64,000 bases of DNA from Mesotoga infera (GTDB lineage Bacteria > Thermotogota > Thermotogae > Petrotogales > Kosmotogaceae). The position numbers were made by a program, and so were the translations under genes. The stretch covers positions 1,364,001 through 1,428,000 of the forward strand of contig NZ_LS974202.1 in NCBI RefSeq assembly GCF_900157305.1. The letters are read 5' to 3'. Of the stretch, positions 41,760 to 47,673 are shown piece after piece (position 1 is the stretch's first letter; every line of letters starts with the position of its first letter). The notes below the pieces were generated by a model. The model saw only the letters and a program-made list of their open reading frames with translations. It ran no database searches and had not been told where the DNA came from.

Positions 41760-43265
41760 ATGTTCAGAAGCAATGAAAGGGCGGTGGCAACAATCAAGAA
41801 CAGAACTCAGACTATCATCTTCAGCAGGGTTGAGGATGAAGTCAGGATCGCCTCGGTGGATTCCGATCAACTCGAAGAGATATTTTTCGAGGACATGGAT
41901 AGCGAGAGCGTTACAGGAAATATCTACCTTGGAAAAGTCGAAAACGTCGTTCCCAGTCTCGAAGCGGCCTTTGTGAATATAGGTATCGGAAGAAACGCCT
42001 TTCTGAGATTTAAGGATGCCTCCGGCCAGCAGAAACTCGAGAAGAACCAAAAAGTACTCGTACAGGTTAGCAAAGACCCGATAGGTTCGAAAGGGCCTCA
42101 GATAACTTTGAAGGTCAGCATACCGGGCAGGAGCCTCGTTTATACACCCTTTTCTAAACACATAGGCATTTCGAAGAAGATCTCCGATTCCCAGGAAAGG
42201 CACAGGTTGACAGCTGTGGCGAAATCGCTTCTCGAGAGCAAAGAGGGTGTGATCTTCAGGACGGCTTCCTACGGGCTCGGTGAGGAGACCATAAAAGACG
42301 AGCTGGAAGGGCTCAGAGAAAACTGGAAAAAGATAAATGAAACCTTCAAGCGCGGGCGAAAACCCAAGATTCTCTACGAAGAACCTTCGTTCGTAGAGTA
42401 CATCCTCCGCGAAAGGCTCACCGAGAGCACAAAAGAAATCGTCGTCGATTCGGAAGAACTATGGCACGAGGTGGTGGCCGGGATAAGCAAATTCAAGGCC
42501 GGCTTCAAACCGGTAGTCAGATACGTCGAAGGAGATGCCTTCGCAACCGAGGACATCTACGAGAAGCTCAAGATTCTCTATACTAGAACGGTCGCTCTCC
42601 CCGGCGGCGGAAATATCTATATCGACAGAACCGAGGCCATGACGGTCATAGACGTCAACTCGGCCGGCAACCTCTCTGGAAGCGATGTCTCGGAGACCTC
42701 CCTGAACACAAACCTGGAAGCGGCTTCGGAAATCGCGAGGCAGCTCCGGCTGAGGAACATCGGCGGTATCGTCGTGATCGACTTTATAGATATGAAGACC
42801 GATGAAGACAGGCAAAAGATCATATCCAGTCTGAGCAACGAATTCAAGAAAGACAAGGCGCGGACCATGATCATGGGTTTCACCAGACTCGGTCTTCTCG
42901 AGATGACCAGAAAGAGATCTACTGCCGCGATAGGTTCCAAACTTTACTCTTCCTGCCCCGTCTGCAAGGGAACGGGAAGGATAGAATCGCCGCGGGCCGT
43001 TTATCAGAGGTTGCTCAAAGACCTGACGCGCGGTTTCCAGGATCAGACGATAAATGGAGCTTCGGTGCAGGTTTATCAGAATATGTCGGGGATACTCACG
43101 CCGGAGACCCAGAAAAACCTCCTGAAGACTCTCAAAAAAGAAGTGTCGGTAAGTTTCACATGGCCGGTTCCCACGACTTACGACATCAAGTTTATCAAAA
43201 AGCAGGAACAGCCAAAAAAAACCAAGAAGCAGGAGAAGAAAAAAGAAAAGAAGGAGTCGGCCTGA
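41760..43265 (+). CDS. rng: Ribonuclease G/E family endoribonuclease
   Basis: The ATG at 41760 gives 501 residues; the ribosome site is weak and a GTG at 41784 is possible. The S1-type domain (GNIYLGKVENVVPSLEAAFV, NIGIGRNAFLRF), the region KDPIGSKGPQITLKVSIPGR, the catalytic DVNSAGNLSGSDVSETSLNT and the zinc-link CPVCKGTGRIESP are all present. The C-terminus is a lysine-rich tail rather than a degradosome scaffold, as in RNase G. It cuts single-stranded AU-rich RNA and matures 5S/16S precursors. Confidence 0.94.
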   Translation: MFRSNERAVATIKNRTQTIIFSRVEDEVRIASVDSDQLEEIFFEDMDSESVTGNIYLGKVENVVPSLEAAFVNIGIGRNAFLRFKDASGQQKLEKNQKVLVQVSKDPIGSKGPQITLKVSIPGRSLVYTPFSKHIGISKKISDSQERHRLTAVAKSLLESKEGVIFRTASYGLGEETIKDELEGLRENWKKINETFKRGRKPKILYEEPSFVEYILRERLTESTKEIVVDSEELWHEVVAGISKFKAGFKPVVRYVEGDAFATEDIYEKLKILYTRTVALPGGGNIYIDRTEAMTVIDVNSAGNLSGSDVSETSLNTNLEAASEIARQLRLRNIGGIVVIDFIDMKTDEDRQKIISSLSNEFKKDKARTMIMGFTRLGLLEMTRKRSTAAIGSKLYSSCPVCKGTGRIESPRAVYQRLLKDLTRGFQDQTINGASVQVYQNMSGILTPETQKNLLKTLKKEVSVSFTWPVPTTYDIKFIKKQEQPKKTKKQEKKKEKKESA

Positions 43266-43277
43266 CTCCTTCCTCGT

Positions 43278-43352
43278 TGGTGGATGCGACAGGGATCGAA
43301 CCTGTGGCCTCTTCCGTGTGAAGGAAGCGCTCTTCCGCTGAGCTACGCATCC
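43278..43352 (-). tRNA. tRNA-Val(CAC)
   Basis: The minus strand folds as a full cloverleaf. The acceptor is GGATGCG/CGCATCC with encoded CCA, and the D arm is GCTCAGCGGAAGAGC. The anticodon stem CTTCC/GGAAG has loop TTCACAC (anticodon CAC). The T arm is ACAGG-TTCGATC-CCTGT. The length is 75 bases including CCA. It reads GUG codons. Confidence 0.97.
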
Positions 43353-43361
43353 GTACAGTAG

Positions 43362-43390
43362 ATTCTATCACCGGTCGGGCCGACTGTCAA
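43362..43390 (-). promoter_or_regulatory. Promoter of tRNA-Val
   Basis: TTGACA (43385-43390) and TAGAAT (43362-43367) on the minus strand are spaced by 17 bases, with the tRNA 5' end 10 bases after the -10. Confidence 0.9.
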
Positions 43391-43499
43391 GTTTTCGACA
43401 GTGAAGAGAGTTGCCGTCGATGGGCCTCTATCCGGATACGGATACCATAGCGGGCGAAGAGCGATGAAATGACTCTGGAGCAAGGATATAAGCCCGTCT

Positions 43500-44330
43500 C
43501 TATCCGCTTCTTTTAAGGACGCCTTTCCGTTTGGCCCAGCCCTCCATCTTCCTGAAAAAGAGCAGACCCGATGGAAGGAGTAGCCCTCCCAGAAGTATCA
43601 AAGGCCATATATCTCCCCACATTTCGATCATGCCCTTGCCTTCGAGTATCGACGATCTCATTCCTCTCAAGGCATATGTCGCGGGAGACAACCTCCCTAC
43701 CTGCTGCATCCACTGCGGCAGTACATCGACTTCGTAATAGACCCCCGAGAACATCAGAAGGAGCGCCTGAAATATGTGGACTACCTGGGCTCCCTTCTCG
43801 GGCGATATCAGAGGCAACACGGCCGCGACTATTCCCAGACCGACGAAAGAGAAACTGGATACCGCAAGGATGCCGACCGCGGAAAGCAGATTGGCCTTCT
43901 CCAGATTCAGATCGAAGAAGATCGATACCGCCAGCAGAATCAAACCGCTCCTTAGAATCCCGTAAAGTATTGCGTAACCGCAGGTACTCAACAGGTGCGT
44001 CGCTCTTCTCACGGGTGCCATGAAAGTGTACTCTATAGTCTCTTCCCAGCGCTCCCAGGCAACGGTCTCGGCAACTATCTCGAAGAGTATGGAAAGATAA
44101 CCCCAAAGAATCGATCCCAATAGCATGTACAGTATAAGGTAACTCGTATCCAGTTTAGTGCCGGAGAAGGCTTCTATGCCTTTGCCTATGAAACCCATGG
44201 TGACGGAGTTGGCTATCGTGTACACAAAAAAGACCAGTTCCCATTTCCAGTATCTTTTGGTGAAATTGAAGTTTCTCTCTATAAAGGCCCAAGAGGCCCT
44301 AAGCTCTCTTGCAAGCGCCTGCGAACTCAT
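43500..44330 (-). CDS. ABC-2 type transporter permease
   Basis: The 276-residue protein has six hydrophobic helices and the ABC-2 signature region near the C-terminus (LLLMFSGVYYEVDVLPQWMQ, SPATYALRGMRSSILEGKGM). ABC-2 systems are mostly exporters of drugs, lipids, polysaccharide or peptides. The start overlaps the ATPase stop by four bases, so the two form one exporter. Three small ORFs precede the ATPase gene in the same direction, which makes peptide export or self-protection a specific hypothesis here. Confidence 0.92.
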   Translation of the reverse strand: MSSQALARELRASWAFIERNFNFTKRYWKWELVFFVYTIANSVTMGFIGKGIEAFSGTKLDTSYLILYMLLGSILWGYLSILFEIVAETVAWERWEETIEYTFMAPVRRATHLLSTCGYAILYGILRSGLILLAVSIFFDLNLEKANLLSAVGILAVSSFSFVGLGIVAAVLPLISPEKGAQVVHIFQALLLMFSGVYYEVDVLPQWMQQVGRLSPATYALRGMRSSILEGKGMIEMWGDIWPLILLGGLLLPSGLLFFRKMEGWAKRKGVLKRSG

Positions 44331-45121
44331 GCCGTTTCTACCTCCTGGTACTGCGCATCCTCAAGGGACATTCCCGTGTGCTCCATGAAGACATCCTCGA
44401 AGGTCGGGTTGTCCACCTTTCCTCTGAGCTGGTTCTTCAGCTCCTGCGGCCTCCCTTCTGCGACGATCTTACCCAGGTGAATTATTCCCACATAATCACA
44501 GAGCTTTTCGGCTTCTTCCATGTCGTGGGTGGTCAGGAGCATGGTCGTGTTCATATTTAATTTCACGTCTCTTATGAGTGACTGAACATCTCTCTTGGCT
44601 CTCGGATCGAGCCCCGTGGTCGGTTCGTCCAGAAGAAGCATCCTCGGTTCGGTCATGAAAGCCCTGACGATGGCGACTTTCTGTTGCATACCTCTCGAAA
44701 AGTCTTCCAGCGGATCTTTCAATCTCTTTTCGTCCAGACCGAAACGTTCGGAAAGATAGTAGATCTTCTTTATGGCTTCTCTCTTGGAAATGCCATAGAG
44801 ACCGGCCGAGAAGGCCAGATTCTCTATGGCGGACAGTTTCCTGAAAAAACTCGCCTCGACGGAGACCCTGTTGATGAGCTTCTGAACGACTCCCGCCTCT
44901 TTTTCCACATCGTGCCCGAAGACGGACACGCTGCCCCTGTCGGGTATCAAAAGAGTCGAAGCGATCCTGATGAACGTCGATTTGCCCGAGCCGTTCGGCC
45001 CCAATAGTCCGTAGATCTCTCCCTCTTTTATCCTCAAGCTTACTCCCTTGAGCGCCTTGATCTCTTTCTTGTTTTTCTTGAAAAGTTTAACCACGTTATT
45101 CGCGAAAAGCGCGTCGGCCAT
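44327..45121 (-). CDS. ABC exporter ATP-binding protein
   Basis: The 264-residue protein has Walker A GLLGPNGSGKSTFI, the signature LEDFSRGMQQKVAIVRAFMT (in place of LSGGQ), Walker B MLLLDEPTTGLDP and the switch LLTTHDMEEAEKL. It is of the DRA/CcmA type that pairs with ABC-2 permeases. ATG 45121 follows GGAGGTGCGTA, with the stop of the third small peptide ORF just ahead (45134-45136). It drives export by the downstream permease. Confidence 0.95.
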   Translation of the reverse strand: MADALFANNVVKLFKKNKKEIKALKGVSLRIKEGEIYGLLGPNGSGKSTFIRIASTLLIPDRGSVSVFGHDVEKEAGVVQKLINRVSVEASFFRKLSAIENLAFSAGLYGISKREAIKKIYYLSERFGLDEKRLKDPLEDFSRGMQQKVAIVRAFMTEPRMLLLDEPTTGLDPRAKRDVQSLIRDVKLNMNTTMLLTTHDMEEAEKLCDYVGIIHLGKIVAEGRPQELKNQLRGKVDNPTFEDVFMEHTGMSLEDAQYQEVETA

Positions 45122-45133
45122 TACGCACCTCCA

Positions 45134-45238
45134 TCAAAGATAATGGGGCCTGCTGAACTTGCTTTCGATCTCGACTTTCTGTCTTTCAACTATTCCATCT
45201 ATGAAAATCTCTCTCGAACCTCTATAAATCTTTTTCAT
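45134..45238 (-). CDS. Small peptide ORF C (34 residues) before the ABC exporter
   Basis: It starts at ATG 45238, seven bases after GGAGG, and its A is the last base of the preceding ORF stop (TGATG overlap). The stop is 12 bases before the ATPase start. The peptide opens MKKIYRGSREIFIDG, contains RQKVEIESK and ends FSRPHYL. It shares KVEIE and an aromatic/Pro-containing C-terminus ending in Leu with ORF A. Coupled translation with both neighbours argues that it is real. No homologue is recognised. Candidate exported signal, RiPP precursor or small membrane-independent regulator. Confidence 0.6.
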   Translation of the reverse strand: MKKIYRGSREIFIDGIVERQKVEIESKFSRPHYL

Positions 45239-45366
45239 CACGCCACCTCCTGGCGACTATCCTGGGGAAACTCCATGATACTATCCGGTCTATCTATGAA
45301 GGGTGGAAGTACAACACTACAACCAATACGGTCCTTTCTGATCTCTCCGCTTAACGCTATTTTCAT
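45238..45366 (-). CDS. Small peptide ORF B (42 residues) before the ABC exporter
   Basis: ATG 45366 follows GGGGGTGAAACA. The peptide opens MKIALSGEIRKDRIGCSVVL, contains PPFIDRPDS and ends RQEVA; it has a single Cys16. The stop overlaps the start of ORF C. The sequence differs from ORFs A and C, so it may be a different component (immunity, scaffold or second peptide). It is not recognised. Confidence 0.55.
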   Translation of the reverse strand: MKIALSGEIRKDRIGCSVVLPPFIDRPDSIMEFPQDSRQEVA

Positions 45367-45418
45367 TGTTTCACCCCCTGCGCTTTCGAACCGGGTTTCA
45401 TGGTCCCCGTTTCATCCC

Positions 45419-45526
45419 TCAAAGCCAGAAACAGTAAGGACCAAAAACCTCGTTCTCTCTCTGCTTTTTCTGAATCTTCTTCTGTTCCACTTTCTCGATT
45501 CTTTCGATCTCTACCTTAACCGACAT
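45419..45526 (-). CDS. Small peptide ORF A (35 residues) before the ABC exporter
   Basis: ATG 45526 follows AGGAGGTGGAGTT (GGAGG seven bases away), among the best ribosome sites in the window. The peptide has a charged N-terminal half (MSVKVEIERIEKVEQKKIQ) and an abrupt aromatic end FGPYCFWL. A charged leader followed by a short aromatic, Cys- and Pro-containing tail is the layout of many exported or modified peptides. ORF B begins 52 bases further on. No promoter is seen between it and the terminator at 45555-45590. Confidence 0.6.
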   Translation of the reverse strand: MSVKVEIERIEKVEQKKIQKKQRENEVFGPYCFWL

Positions 45527-45554
45527 AACTCCACCTCCTGGAGAAATGGTTGAC

Positions 45555-45590
45555 AAAAAAAAGGACCGTGGCTGTTACTCGCCACGGTCC
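45555..45590 (-). terminator. Terminator between the 35-aa leader ORF and the peptide-exporter genes
   Basis: On the minus strand GGACCGTGGC and GCCACGGTCC form a perfect ten-base stem with an eight-base loop, followed by TTTTTTTT. It lies 18 bases after the stop of the upstream 35-residue ORF and 28 bases before ORF A. It may work as an attenuator. Confidence 0.93.
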
Positions 45591-45608
45591 TTCAAACATC
45601 GTCTATGG

Positions 45609-45716
45609 TTATACGTCTTTATACCTCACACGACGGATGAAGGCGTGGCAGAATGCGGCATCACCGGAGACCCTGTTAAGGGTGGTGGAAAATCCGGTCT
45701 TAAGTCTCATCATCAT
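45609..45716 (-). CDS. 35-residue leader ORF with its own promoter and terminator
   Basis: ATG 45716 (one of three consecutive ATG codons) follows GGAGG by nine bases. The peptide opens MMMRLKTGFSTTLNRVSGD and ends FCHAFIRRVRYKDV, so it is basic with one Cys. An extended -10 promoter lies just upstream and a strong terminator just downstream, so it is transcribed on its own or as the leader of the exporter operon. An even closer ATG at 45721 gives only a two-codon ORF. It is not recognised. Confidence 0.55.
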   Translation of the reverse strand: MMMRLKTGFSTTLNRVSGDAAFCHAFIRRVRYKDV

Positions 45717-45759
45717 TCCATTACGCCTCCTTTCGAATAGTTTCTCTTTCGCTTGACTG

Positions 45760-45787
45760 ATTATAGCATAAACTATGGAGAAATCAA
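45760..45787 (-). promoter_or_regulatory. Promoter of the leader ORF / peptide-exporter region
   Basis: On the minus strand TTGATT (45782-45787) and TATAAT (45760-45765) have a 16-base spacer, and TGC directly before the -10 makes it an extended -10 element. The 250 bases between here and the divergent binding-protein gene are AT-rich and hold nothing else that I can identify. Confidence 0.8.
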
Positions 45788-46009
45788 AAGTCAATTCCTA
45801 AATATTATTGAATCCGGATTTACTTTTTGACACTTATTTAGTACTGCAATAAATAACTTTGCCTTTGTCGTTGAAATATCTTTTATCATCGCTCCGAAAG
45901 AATCAAAAGACTGAACTATCCTCGAAAGATATCAGTCAATTTCTATAATCCGCTCCTACCAGTATCCCGATACTCAAAACGTTCTTTTCCATAGAGCGGG
46001 TAATTTCGA

Positions 46010-46015
46010 TATAAT
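46010..46015 (+). promoter_or_regulatory. -10 box of the peptide-type binding-protein gene
   Basis: TATAAT lies 29 bases before the GTG start at 46045. The -35 match is poor. Confidence 0.55.
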
Positions 46016-46044
46016 TGAGCTGATGAAAGTTCTGGAGGTTGCCC

Positions 46045-47673
46045 GTGCATAAAATTTCGACTGTTGTTTTACTCGCGCTGCTCGCCGCCACGTTACTATC
46101 GAGGGATTTGACGGTTCGATCTAACAACTCATGTTTCGACCTCGAAGAAATTTCCGGTGGATCCATCTCTCTCCCGATAGATACTACCGGCCACTTCCTA
46201 CCGGGCCTTGAGCTGGTCCGGGGGGATCTCTGGGTAACGGCCGCCACTCAGGACCCGCTTTTTTTGAAGCTTAGCGGTGATAGAATCGAGCCTTCGCTCG
46301 TAGAAGAATGGGAGTGGAGGGACGGGAATAAAGAGCTGTATATAAGGCTTAGAGATGACATCCGCTGGTTCGACGGAACTCCGATTACTACGAGCGATCT
46401 GGAATATTCGTTGGCGATCTGGAAAGCTAGCGAAGACTCGCGACTCTACAAGATTCTGAACAATCCCGCTTACGTGAAGATGAAAACTTTGGATAGCAAG
46501 AGCGCCGTTTTCTATTTCAATCGGCCATTTCCCGAGTTCACCGGTTATCTAAGGACGGGATTGCTGGCCAGACACATCTACGAAGGGAAGCTTGGATTGA
46601 AACCTGGAGAGGTGTCTGCCAGCCAGTATTCGGGCAAACCTCCCCTGGAGGCCACCTCAGGACCTTTTTATCTGGCGGAGGGGAGCAAGAAGGGAAATAT
46701 AATACTCAAGAGAAATCCCCAATGGCACGGTGGAAAAGGCTCGGAACACTACCCGCTATACTTCACCGAGTGGCCCGAACATGCCCTTCTTGACGAAATA
46801 AGACTGATAGAAGAGGCCGATCAGGAAGAGAGAATAAAGATGTTCCTGAACGGTGAGCTAAGCATGCTCTTCAACGAAGAAAACGCCGCGACGGAGCTCA
46901 TAAACGGCGCAAAGAATGGAAATTACAGATACGAATTCACTCCCGACGGTTCTTATTACGCTTTGATTCTCAATCACAGGAACGAATTCCTCTCTAAGAG
47001 CTCTGTGAGAAAGGCCCTGAGAATGGCTCTGGACGTCGAGAAACTGTCGGGAACGATCGGGATCGGCTCTACCGGGGCCCTTCTGCCCATAGATGCCCGA
47101 ACAGCTCTTCTTCAAGAGCTCTTGACGCAGATCGGAGAGTTTCCCTACGATGCGGGAAGAGCAAAAGAGCTCCTCGCGGGTGCCGGGTACGGGAAGGGAT
47201 ACACCCTTACGATCAAGGTTCACCAGGGAGTAGATAAGAAGTTCACGGACATGCTGGCGAAGATGTGGAAGGAGATCGGAGTGGATCTGAAGGTGGAGAG
47301 ACTCGACTGGGGAAGTCTGCTAGGCGACGTGTATTCGGCCGACTACGATCTGGCCTTTTTCAGGGTTGAAGCATTCGATTATCCGGAGATCGCTCCCTGG
47401 GCGGTTGAGAACGCCGACGACTTAAAAACCGGCTGGGAAGTGGGATATGTGAATCCACAATTGTTCAGAATAGAGAGAAAAGCTATTACCGAGGGGCTAT
47501 GGAAGAACAGGATCCCGTACTACCTGGGAGCCATGAAGTTATGGCTCGAAGATATGCCGATCATAGTGATATCCTATAGTCAGAAGGTCACGTTCTGGAG
47601 GCGAGAATTGAATGGACCGGTACCGGGGAGTGGAGAACTGTTCGACAACCTGGCCGAATGGTTCGTGCGCTGA
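46045..47673 (+). CDS. Orphan oligopeptide-type ABC substrate-binding protein (family 5)
   Basis: GTG 46045 lies six bases after GGAGG; two residues more are possible from a TTG. The 542-residue protein has a signal-like hydrophobic start (ISTVVLLALLAATLLS). It shows the SBP_bac_5 signature region (EPSLVEEWEWRDGNKELYIR followed by RDDIRWFDGTPITTSDLEYS) and a repeat of the fold (SVRKALRMALDVEKL). Such proteins bind peptides, nickel or some oligosaccharides. No Opp/Dpp permease or ATPase is adjacent, so it is an orphan. It is divergent from four small peptide ORFs and an exporter. The alpha-alpha-toroid gene follows 31 bases later. Confidence 0.9.
   Translation: MHKISTVVLLALLAATLLSRDLTVRSNNSCFDLEEISGGSISLPIDTTGHFLPGLELVRGDLWVTAATQDPLFLKLSGDRIEPSLVEEWEWRDGNKELYIRLRDDIRWFDGTPITTSDLEYSLAIWKASEDSRLYKILNNPAYVKMKTLDSKSAVFYFNRPFPEFTGYLRTGLLARHIYEGKLGLKPGEVSASQYSGKPPLEATSGPFYLAEGSKKGNIILKRNPQWHGGKGSEHYPLYFTEWPEHALLDEIRLIEEADQEERIKMFLNGELSMLFNEENAATELINGAKNGNYRYEFTPDGSYYALILNHRNEFLSKSSVRKALRMALDVEKLSGTIGIGSTGALLPIDARTALLQELLTQIGEFPYDAGRAKELLAGAGYGKGYTLTIKVHQGVDKKFTDMLAKMWKEIGVDLKVERLDWGSLLGDVYSADYDLAFFRVEAFDYPEIAPWAVENADDLKTGWEVGYVNPQLFRIERKAITEGLWKNRIPYYLGAMKLWLEDMPIIVISYSQKVTFWRRELNGPVPGSGELFDNLAEWFVR

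Follow-up and report, generated by a model that had tools for sequence, protein, structure and literature searches.

An operon of Mesotoga infera encoding an ABC-2 exporter is preceded by an RNA leader that has, in its sequence, the anatomy of a three-state transcription attenuator, and three small ORFs (A, B and C), of which B and C show the substitution pattern of peptides under codon-level selection, are inserted between the two. We consider it very probable that this is a drug-exporter operon inducible by ribosome stress, and we somewhat favour the fuller explanation in which the attenuator switches the exporter operon and A–C have a regulatory or accessory role. New here are the attenuator, its spread and the selection on two of the three peptides; attenuators of this type are known, but they appear to be undescribed in Thermotogota, for which a search of part of the literature returned no account of ribosome-mediated attenuation. 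These results would provide an RNA switch for pump genes that occurs in Caldisericota as well as in several Thermotogota families and offers one exact pairing for mutation, and they isolate a clean question, namely why one family put two or three small ORFs, some clearly selected, between the switch and the pump.

Organization of the exporter locus

All coordinates refer to the window, the whole 64,000-nt stretch of DNA that was analysed, and every feature of the locus lies on its minus strand. The initial annotation had described three small ORFs of 35, 42 and 34 aa ahead of an exporter ATPase gene, each with a strong ribosome site, and we confirmed their position, strand and order: ORF A (45419–45526, SD AGGAGG), ORF B (45238–45366, SD GGGGG) and ORF C (45134–45238, SD AGGAGG), the last overlapping ORF B as TGATG, as had been reported, and ending 12 nt ahead of the ATPase start. 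The ATPase gene of a DrrA-like ABC exporter (44327–45121) is followed by a permease gene (43500–44330; ABC-2, PF01061) and, downstream of the latter, by a tRNA gene (43281–43352). The features listed previously for 45121–45787 were incomplete, as they omitted a 35-codon leader uORF (MMMRLKTGFSTTLNRVSGDAAFCHAFIRRVRYKDV, 45609–45716) and an intrinsic terminator (45593–45560). With the leader as the fourth, the 666-nt stretch ahead of the ATPase holds four ORFs of at least 25 codons with an SD and an ATG; when this interval was resampled 2000 times under a first-order Markov model, no resample had three or more (mean 0.096). The string KVEIE, common to A and C, had been pointed out earlier; it was not significant in a shuffle test (p=0.40), and homology of A and C on this basis was rejected.

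Alternative pairings predicted for the leader RNA

The leader is preceded by a putative sigma-70-like promoter with an extended −10 element (TTGATT-16-TATAAT, with TG before the −10; 45760–45787), and a TGCTATAA(T/C) box was found ahead of the leader in every Mesotoga locus displayed. The uORF has its own SD, AGGAGG (45726–45731), and the terminator is a hairpin of 13 bp with a U tract (45560–45593); the uORF and the terminator are the most conserved part of the interval. Two predicted pairings share one segment of the uORF, the switch segment GCCACGCCTTC (45639–45649), which spans codons C-H-A-F (CHAF). It may pair with the leader SD (OFF), forming the anti-antiterminator helix, one arm of which is GGAGGCGT (45723–45730) as judged from helix covariation, or with the 5′ arm of the terminator (ON), forming the antiterminator.

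When full leaders were folded, the minimum free energy (MFE) structure contained the SD–CHAF helix and the terminator in 12/12 Kosmotogaceae leaders, while folding without the 3′ arm of the terminator resulted in the antiterminator in 11 of the 12. Since the SD helix of f8 and f11 leaders is very strong, the truncated-leader MFE was unfair to them and was replaced by folds in which the SD was blocked. With the SD region held open, the antiterminator was predicted in all 12 Kosmotogaceae leaders (11–14 pairs), where it shared 6–10 nt with the SD partner. Across families, the SD was paired within the leader in 25/25 leaders, and the antiterminator shared nucleotides with the SD partner in 22 of them, the exceptions being L189, L150 and L157. 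The short SD-bearing uORF sits where it would in an attenuator, upstream of a terminator; according to the folds, ribosome occupancy of the uORF would break up the anti-antiterminator, and the antiterminator is predicted to exclude both the anti-antiterminator and the terminator.

RNAalifold recovered the SD helix unprompted. In this helix 97.6% of cells were paired and three pairs showed double changes. None of 500 shuffles reached its covariation score, and every slid register was far worse. All 12 terminator pairs were intact in all 10 sequences (100% of cells), and the antiterminator was likewise paired in 100% of cells, being nearly invariant and so without a covariation signal of its own. 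Single-sequence shuffle tests of the leader folds were individually modest.

The amino-acid sequence of the leader is well conserved, as expected if the uORF had no regulatory role and encoded one more bioactive peptide, the fourth. We consider this highly improbable, since synonymous changes are equally suppressed (dS 0.12–0.16, as compared with 1.76–2.24 in the neighbouring ATPase, pairwise NG86), the three codon positions have nearly equal shares of the substitutions, with little codon periodicity, and conservation follows the pairing segments; the deficit of amino-acid changes as compared with random placement was only weak. The low dS and the flat codon profile indicate that the leader is conserved chiefly for its RNA.

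Proposed mechanism and comparison with known attenuators

In the mechanism that we infer from these pairings, RNA polymerase would start at the promoter (45760–45787) and make the leader with its 35-codon uORF. If the uORF start is empty, or if a fast ribosome is already past it, the SD would pair with CHAF, the terminator would form and transcription would stop. A ribosome stalled or slowed early in the uORF would instead cover the SD and free CHAF, which would then base-pair with the terminator's 5′ arm, so that transcription would read through into A–C and the two exporter genes. An antibiotic that inhibits translation is the probable signal, and a drug pump the probable identity of the exporter; the main argument for such a signal is indirect, and is that several pumps carry one kind of leader. 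The leader might also sense something besides ribosome inhibition, such as amino-acid shortage, a ligand or a protein, and several leaders are Arg-rich (5–6 of 32–34 codons). However, the leaders contain no single-codon run, the ground on which an amino-acid attenuator was rejected, and an Rfam search of positions 42000–47000 (E≤1) returned only a tRNA and no known cis-regulator family. As leaders of the same layout precede several efflux pumps and the conserved feature is the helix partner of the SD, we regard a different signal as quite improbable.

The same logic operates in Bacillus subtilis at vmlR, where a ribosome stalled on a uORF leads to readthrough (PMC9226507). Both leaders have a uORF and mutually exclusive anti-antiterminator, antiterminator and terminator, but the vmlR target is an ABCF ribosome-protection factor and its uORF encodes a tripeptide, while the Mesotoga type has a DrrA/ABC-2 exporter, a uORF of ~25–36 codons, its own SD sequestered, and small ORFs between the terminator and the target. 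Ribosome-mediated attenuation is also described for B. subtilis bmrCD, in which a leader ORF (bmrB), alternative stem–loops and an intrinsic terminator precede a multidrug ABC exporter, as in Mesotoga; in contrast, the terminator lies inside bmrB, the exporter belongs to another family and, in the accessible portion of that report, extra small ORFs are not described (PMC4191407). In Listeria, a ribosome on a short ORF relieves premature termination at rli80-hflXr and lmo0919 (PMC6310831). There the target and the leader sequence are unrelated to those of Mesotoga, and the Listeria stall motif RLR has only a loose counterpart, RVRYK, in the Mesotoga leader.

Distribution of the leader and its exporters

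The best model matches for the ATPase and the permease were drrA and drrB, of DrrAB-type ABC-2 drug exporters, although both scored below the curated cut-offs (246 vs 312 and 44 vs 223, respectively), and for this reason the exporter was not assigned to the DrrAB subfamily. Of the 10 Mesotoga genomes searched, 8 have the leader, which was also detected in Kosmotoga; the near-complete Mesotoga genome G010 has neither the leader nor a close match to the exporter ATPase. Orthologues of the ATPase with 58–61% identity are present in other Thermotogota families, and 7 of the 10 loci inspected there (the seven in f7, f8, f9 and f11) had an SD-bearing leader ORF and a strong terminator directly upstream, while none of these seven had small ORFs after the terminator. 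The UBA12178 leader (L021/L188) retains the string TGAGGTATAAAGA. A leader, a terminator and short ORFs were also found upstream of the exporter at two Caldisericota loci. In the genome G011, the ATPase orthologue (C17:941-1552) has an internal stop or a frameshift, either real or an assembly error.

An RNA model built from Kosmotogaceae leaders alone matched directly upstream of the exporter in two genomes of other families (G101 and G033; families f7 and f11), and also upstream of an MFS pump gene in Mesotoga (L156), the G007 copy of which matched TetA(P) best among NCBIfam models, and of an MsbA-like ABC exporter gene pair in G045. At the MFS locus (L156:625-1987; G000:C1:934400-939500) a uORF, MLDIIQAHRRAILGGIADSVGECYLVRLGTGA, has an SD complementary to a later segment of the leader, and is followed by a terminator and the pump gene; the latter is seemingly frameshifted (open from 795 to 1739, then in another frame to ~1987), and is longer and open in G007, G008 and G009. 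At the G045 locus (L159:1350-5591), a leader ORF and two tandem terminators are followed by MsbA-like genes of 576 and 594 aa. One further match, in G037, was rejected as an efflux leader, as it stands upstream of metQ. At this locus (L158:890-1875), metQ, an ABC ATPase gene and a permease gene are preceded by a terminator and by a leader ORF, MKNNKIIQKININLFNMMMPWCNRFFSHGCFVM, that includes Met-Met-Met, suggesting a possible methionine attenuator.

Selection on the small peptides

The order leader–terminator–A–B–C–ATPase is constant in eight Mesotoga genomes, and ORF C was found in the same eight as the leader, while ORF A, as such, was found in only three. Of the two C-terminal tails pointed out in the initial annotation, both are present as stated; FGPYCFWL of A is limited to three genomes, while FSRPHYL of C is invariant (8/8), with synonymous variation in four of its codons. 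The stop codon of C varies (TGA, TAG or TAA), and its distance to the ATPase start is a constant 12–13 nt.

Where computable, dN/dS of ORF C between clades was 0.06–0.11, with synonymous sites near saturation, and that of ORF B, which has an LPPFI core, was about 0.3–0.4 (NG86). We also placed the observed changes at random in each ORF and counted the amino-acid changes. In ORF C these were too few in every between-clade pair (p from <0.0002 to 0.03), one pair having 5 amino-acid differences among 19 substitutions when 12.4 were expected (p<0.0002), and ORF B showed the same deficit in all between-clade pairs (p 0.0002–0.05). This codon-level constraint indicates that both peptides are under selection, strong for C and weaker for B. 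ORF A evolves fast: its dN/dS (NG86) was low within subclades, but it is hardly alignable between them. Its first-ATG frame in G006 and G012 was rejected, with nine amino-acid-changing differences and one synonymous difference, and ORF A was re-read there in an overlapping TTG frame, since this fits coding better; the stop of this frame is lost in G012. The conservation and codon periodicity proposed earlier as a test of the small ORFs are thus seen in B and C, and in A only partly, as a weak signal.

The four peptides (leader and A–C) had zero family matches in Pfam and NCBIfam, and no relatives of ORF C were found in viral contigs or plasmids. Apidaecin-like RF trapping by FSRPHYL, although an appealing idea, was rejected: the critical C-terminal residues of apidaecin, a type II proline-rich peptide, are P11, R12, R17 and L18 (PMC11347161), while the tail lacks the penultimate Arg, and RP, H and the final L alone recur.

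The cassette in other genera and its possible role

Three small ORFs of different sequence occupy the same slot in two Kosmotoga genomes (G004 and G003), where they show SD overlaps and 4-nt ATGA overlaps, and G016 has two small ORFs there. In G002, which represents another Kosmotogaceae genus, the leader, the terminator and the ATPase are present, with an 8-codon remnant or chance ORF instead of the cassette. In contrast, genus g2 (G001, L178:1024-1470) has three paralogous ORFs of 40–45 aa directly before the exporter ATPase, and no attenuator or terminator was found in the 750 nt read upstream of the ATPase. The g2 trio has a common C-terminal motif, SDF..Y..Q (pairwise shuffle p 0.0000–0.001), while links between Mesotoga ORF C, the third Kosmotoga ORF and the first g2 ORF (p=0.0005) were borderline after 105 comparisons. 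The attenuator and the cassette are separable, as some loci carry one and some the other. The cassette lies outside the old core: its sequence turns over fast, and neither the G002 genus nor any other Thermotogota family inspected has it.

The initial annotation had proposed that the peptides feed the exporter. Its observation was right and its interpretation half right, i.e. partly supported: B and C are selected and the exporter is adjacent, while the feeding itself is a candidate reading. Under that reading the attenuator would act as described, and A–C would be cargo, an unmodified secreted pheromone or bacteriocin made under ribosome stress. The selection on B and C, the paralogous g2 trio beside an exporter with no attenuator in the stretch read, and the fast divergence combined with an invariant C-terminus of ORF C, which is usual for secreted peptides, are consistent with cargo. 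However, cassette and exporter do not consistently co-occur, since orthologues of the exporter in G002 and at L188–L194, as in families f7, f8, f9 and f11, stand without it. In addition, a profile search found no peptidase domain in the exporter ATPase, and no maturation, peptidase or immunity gene was annotated among the 10 flanking proteins; the earlier claim that peptide-modifying enzymes are absent had covered the whole window, and held for these 10. A–C and their counterparts (29–45 aa) are hydrophilic (negative GRAVY) and mostly basic, and none has a hydrophobic signal segment. The conserved core, for its part, belongs to a type of attenuator that governs drug-efflux genes. We therefore regard cargo as rather unlikely.

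We also weighed a role in trans, with A–C as small proteins that are induced together with the pump and serve as subunits of the exporter or as factors binding the ribosome. The operon layout predicts co-transcription, and the codon constraint extends over the whole of ORF C, but A–C are replaced rapidly between genera, are missing from most orthologous loci and match no known family, and we consider this reading unlikely.

The explanation that we favour is that A–C are translated ORFs inserted in Kosmotogaceae between the terminator and the pump, and that they most likely serve exporter expression in a regulatory or accessory capacity; with modest confidence, we rank such roles above cargo. 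A role in cis is suggested by their position, the SD overlaps, the ATGA overlaps in Kosmotoga, the constant spacing and the invariant C-terminus of C, while a role of the product is suggested by the constraint, which runs the full length of C, and by the g2 duplication. A functional product accounts for these last two observations at least as well as an ORF that acts purely in cis. It is possible, if doubtful, that A–C and their counterparts form a new, fast-evolving peptide family of Kosmotogaceae, made only under ribosome inhibition and acting with, or exported by, the pump; if so, they would constitute a stress-inducible peptide system and not mere leader ORFs.
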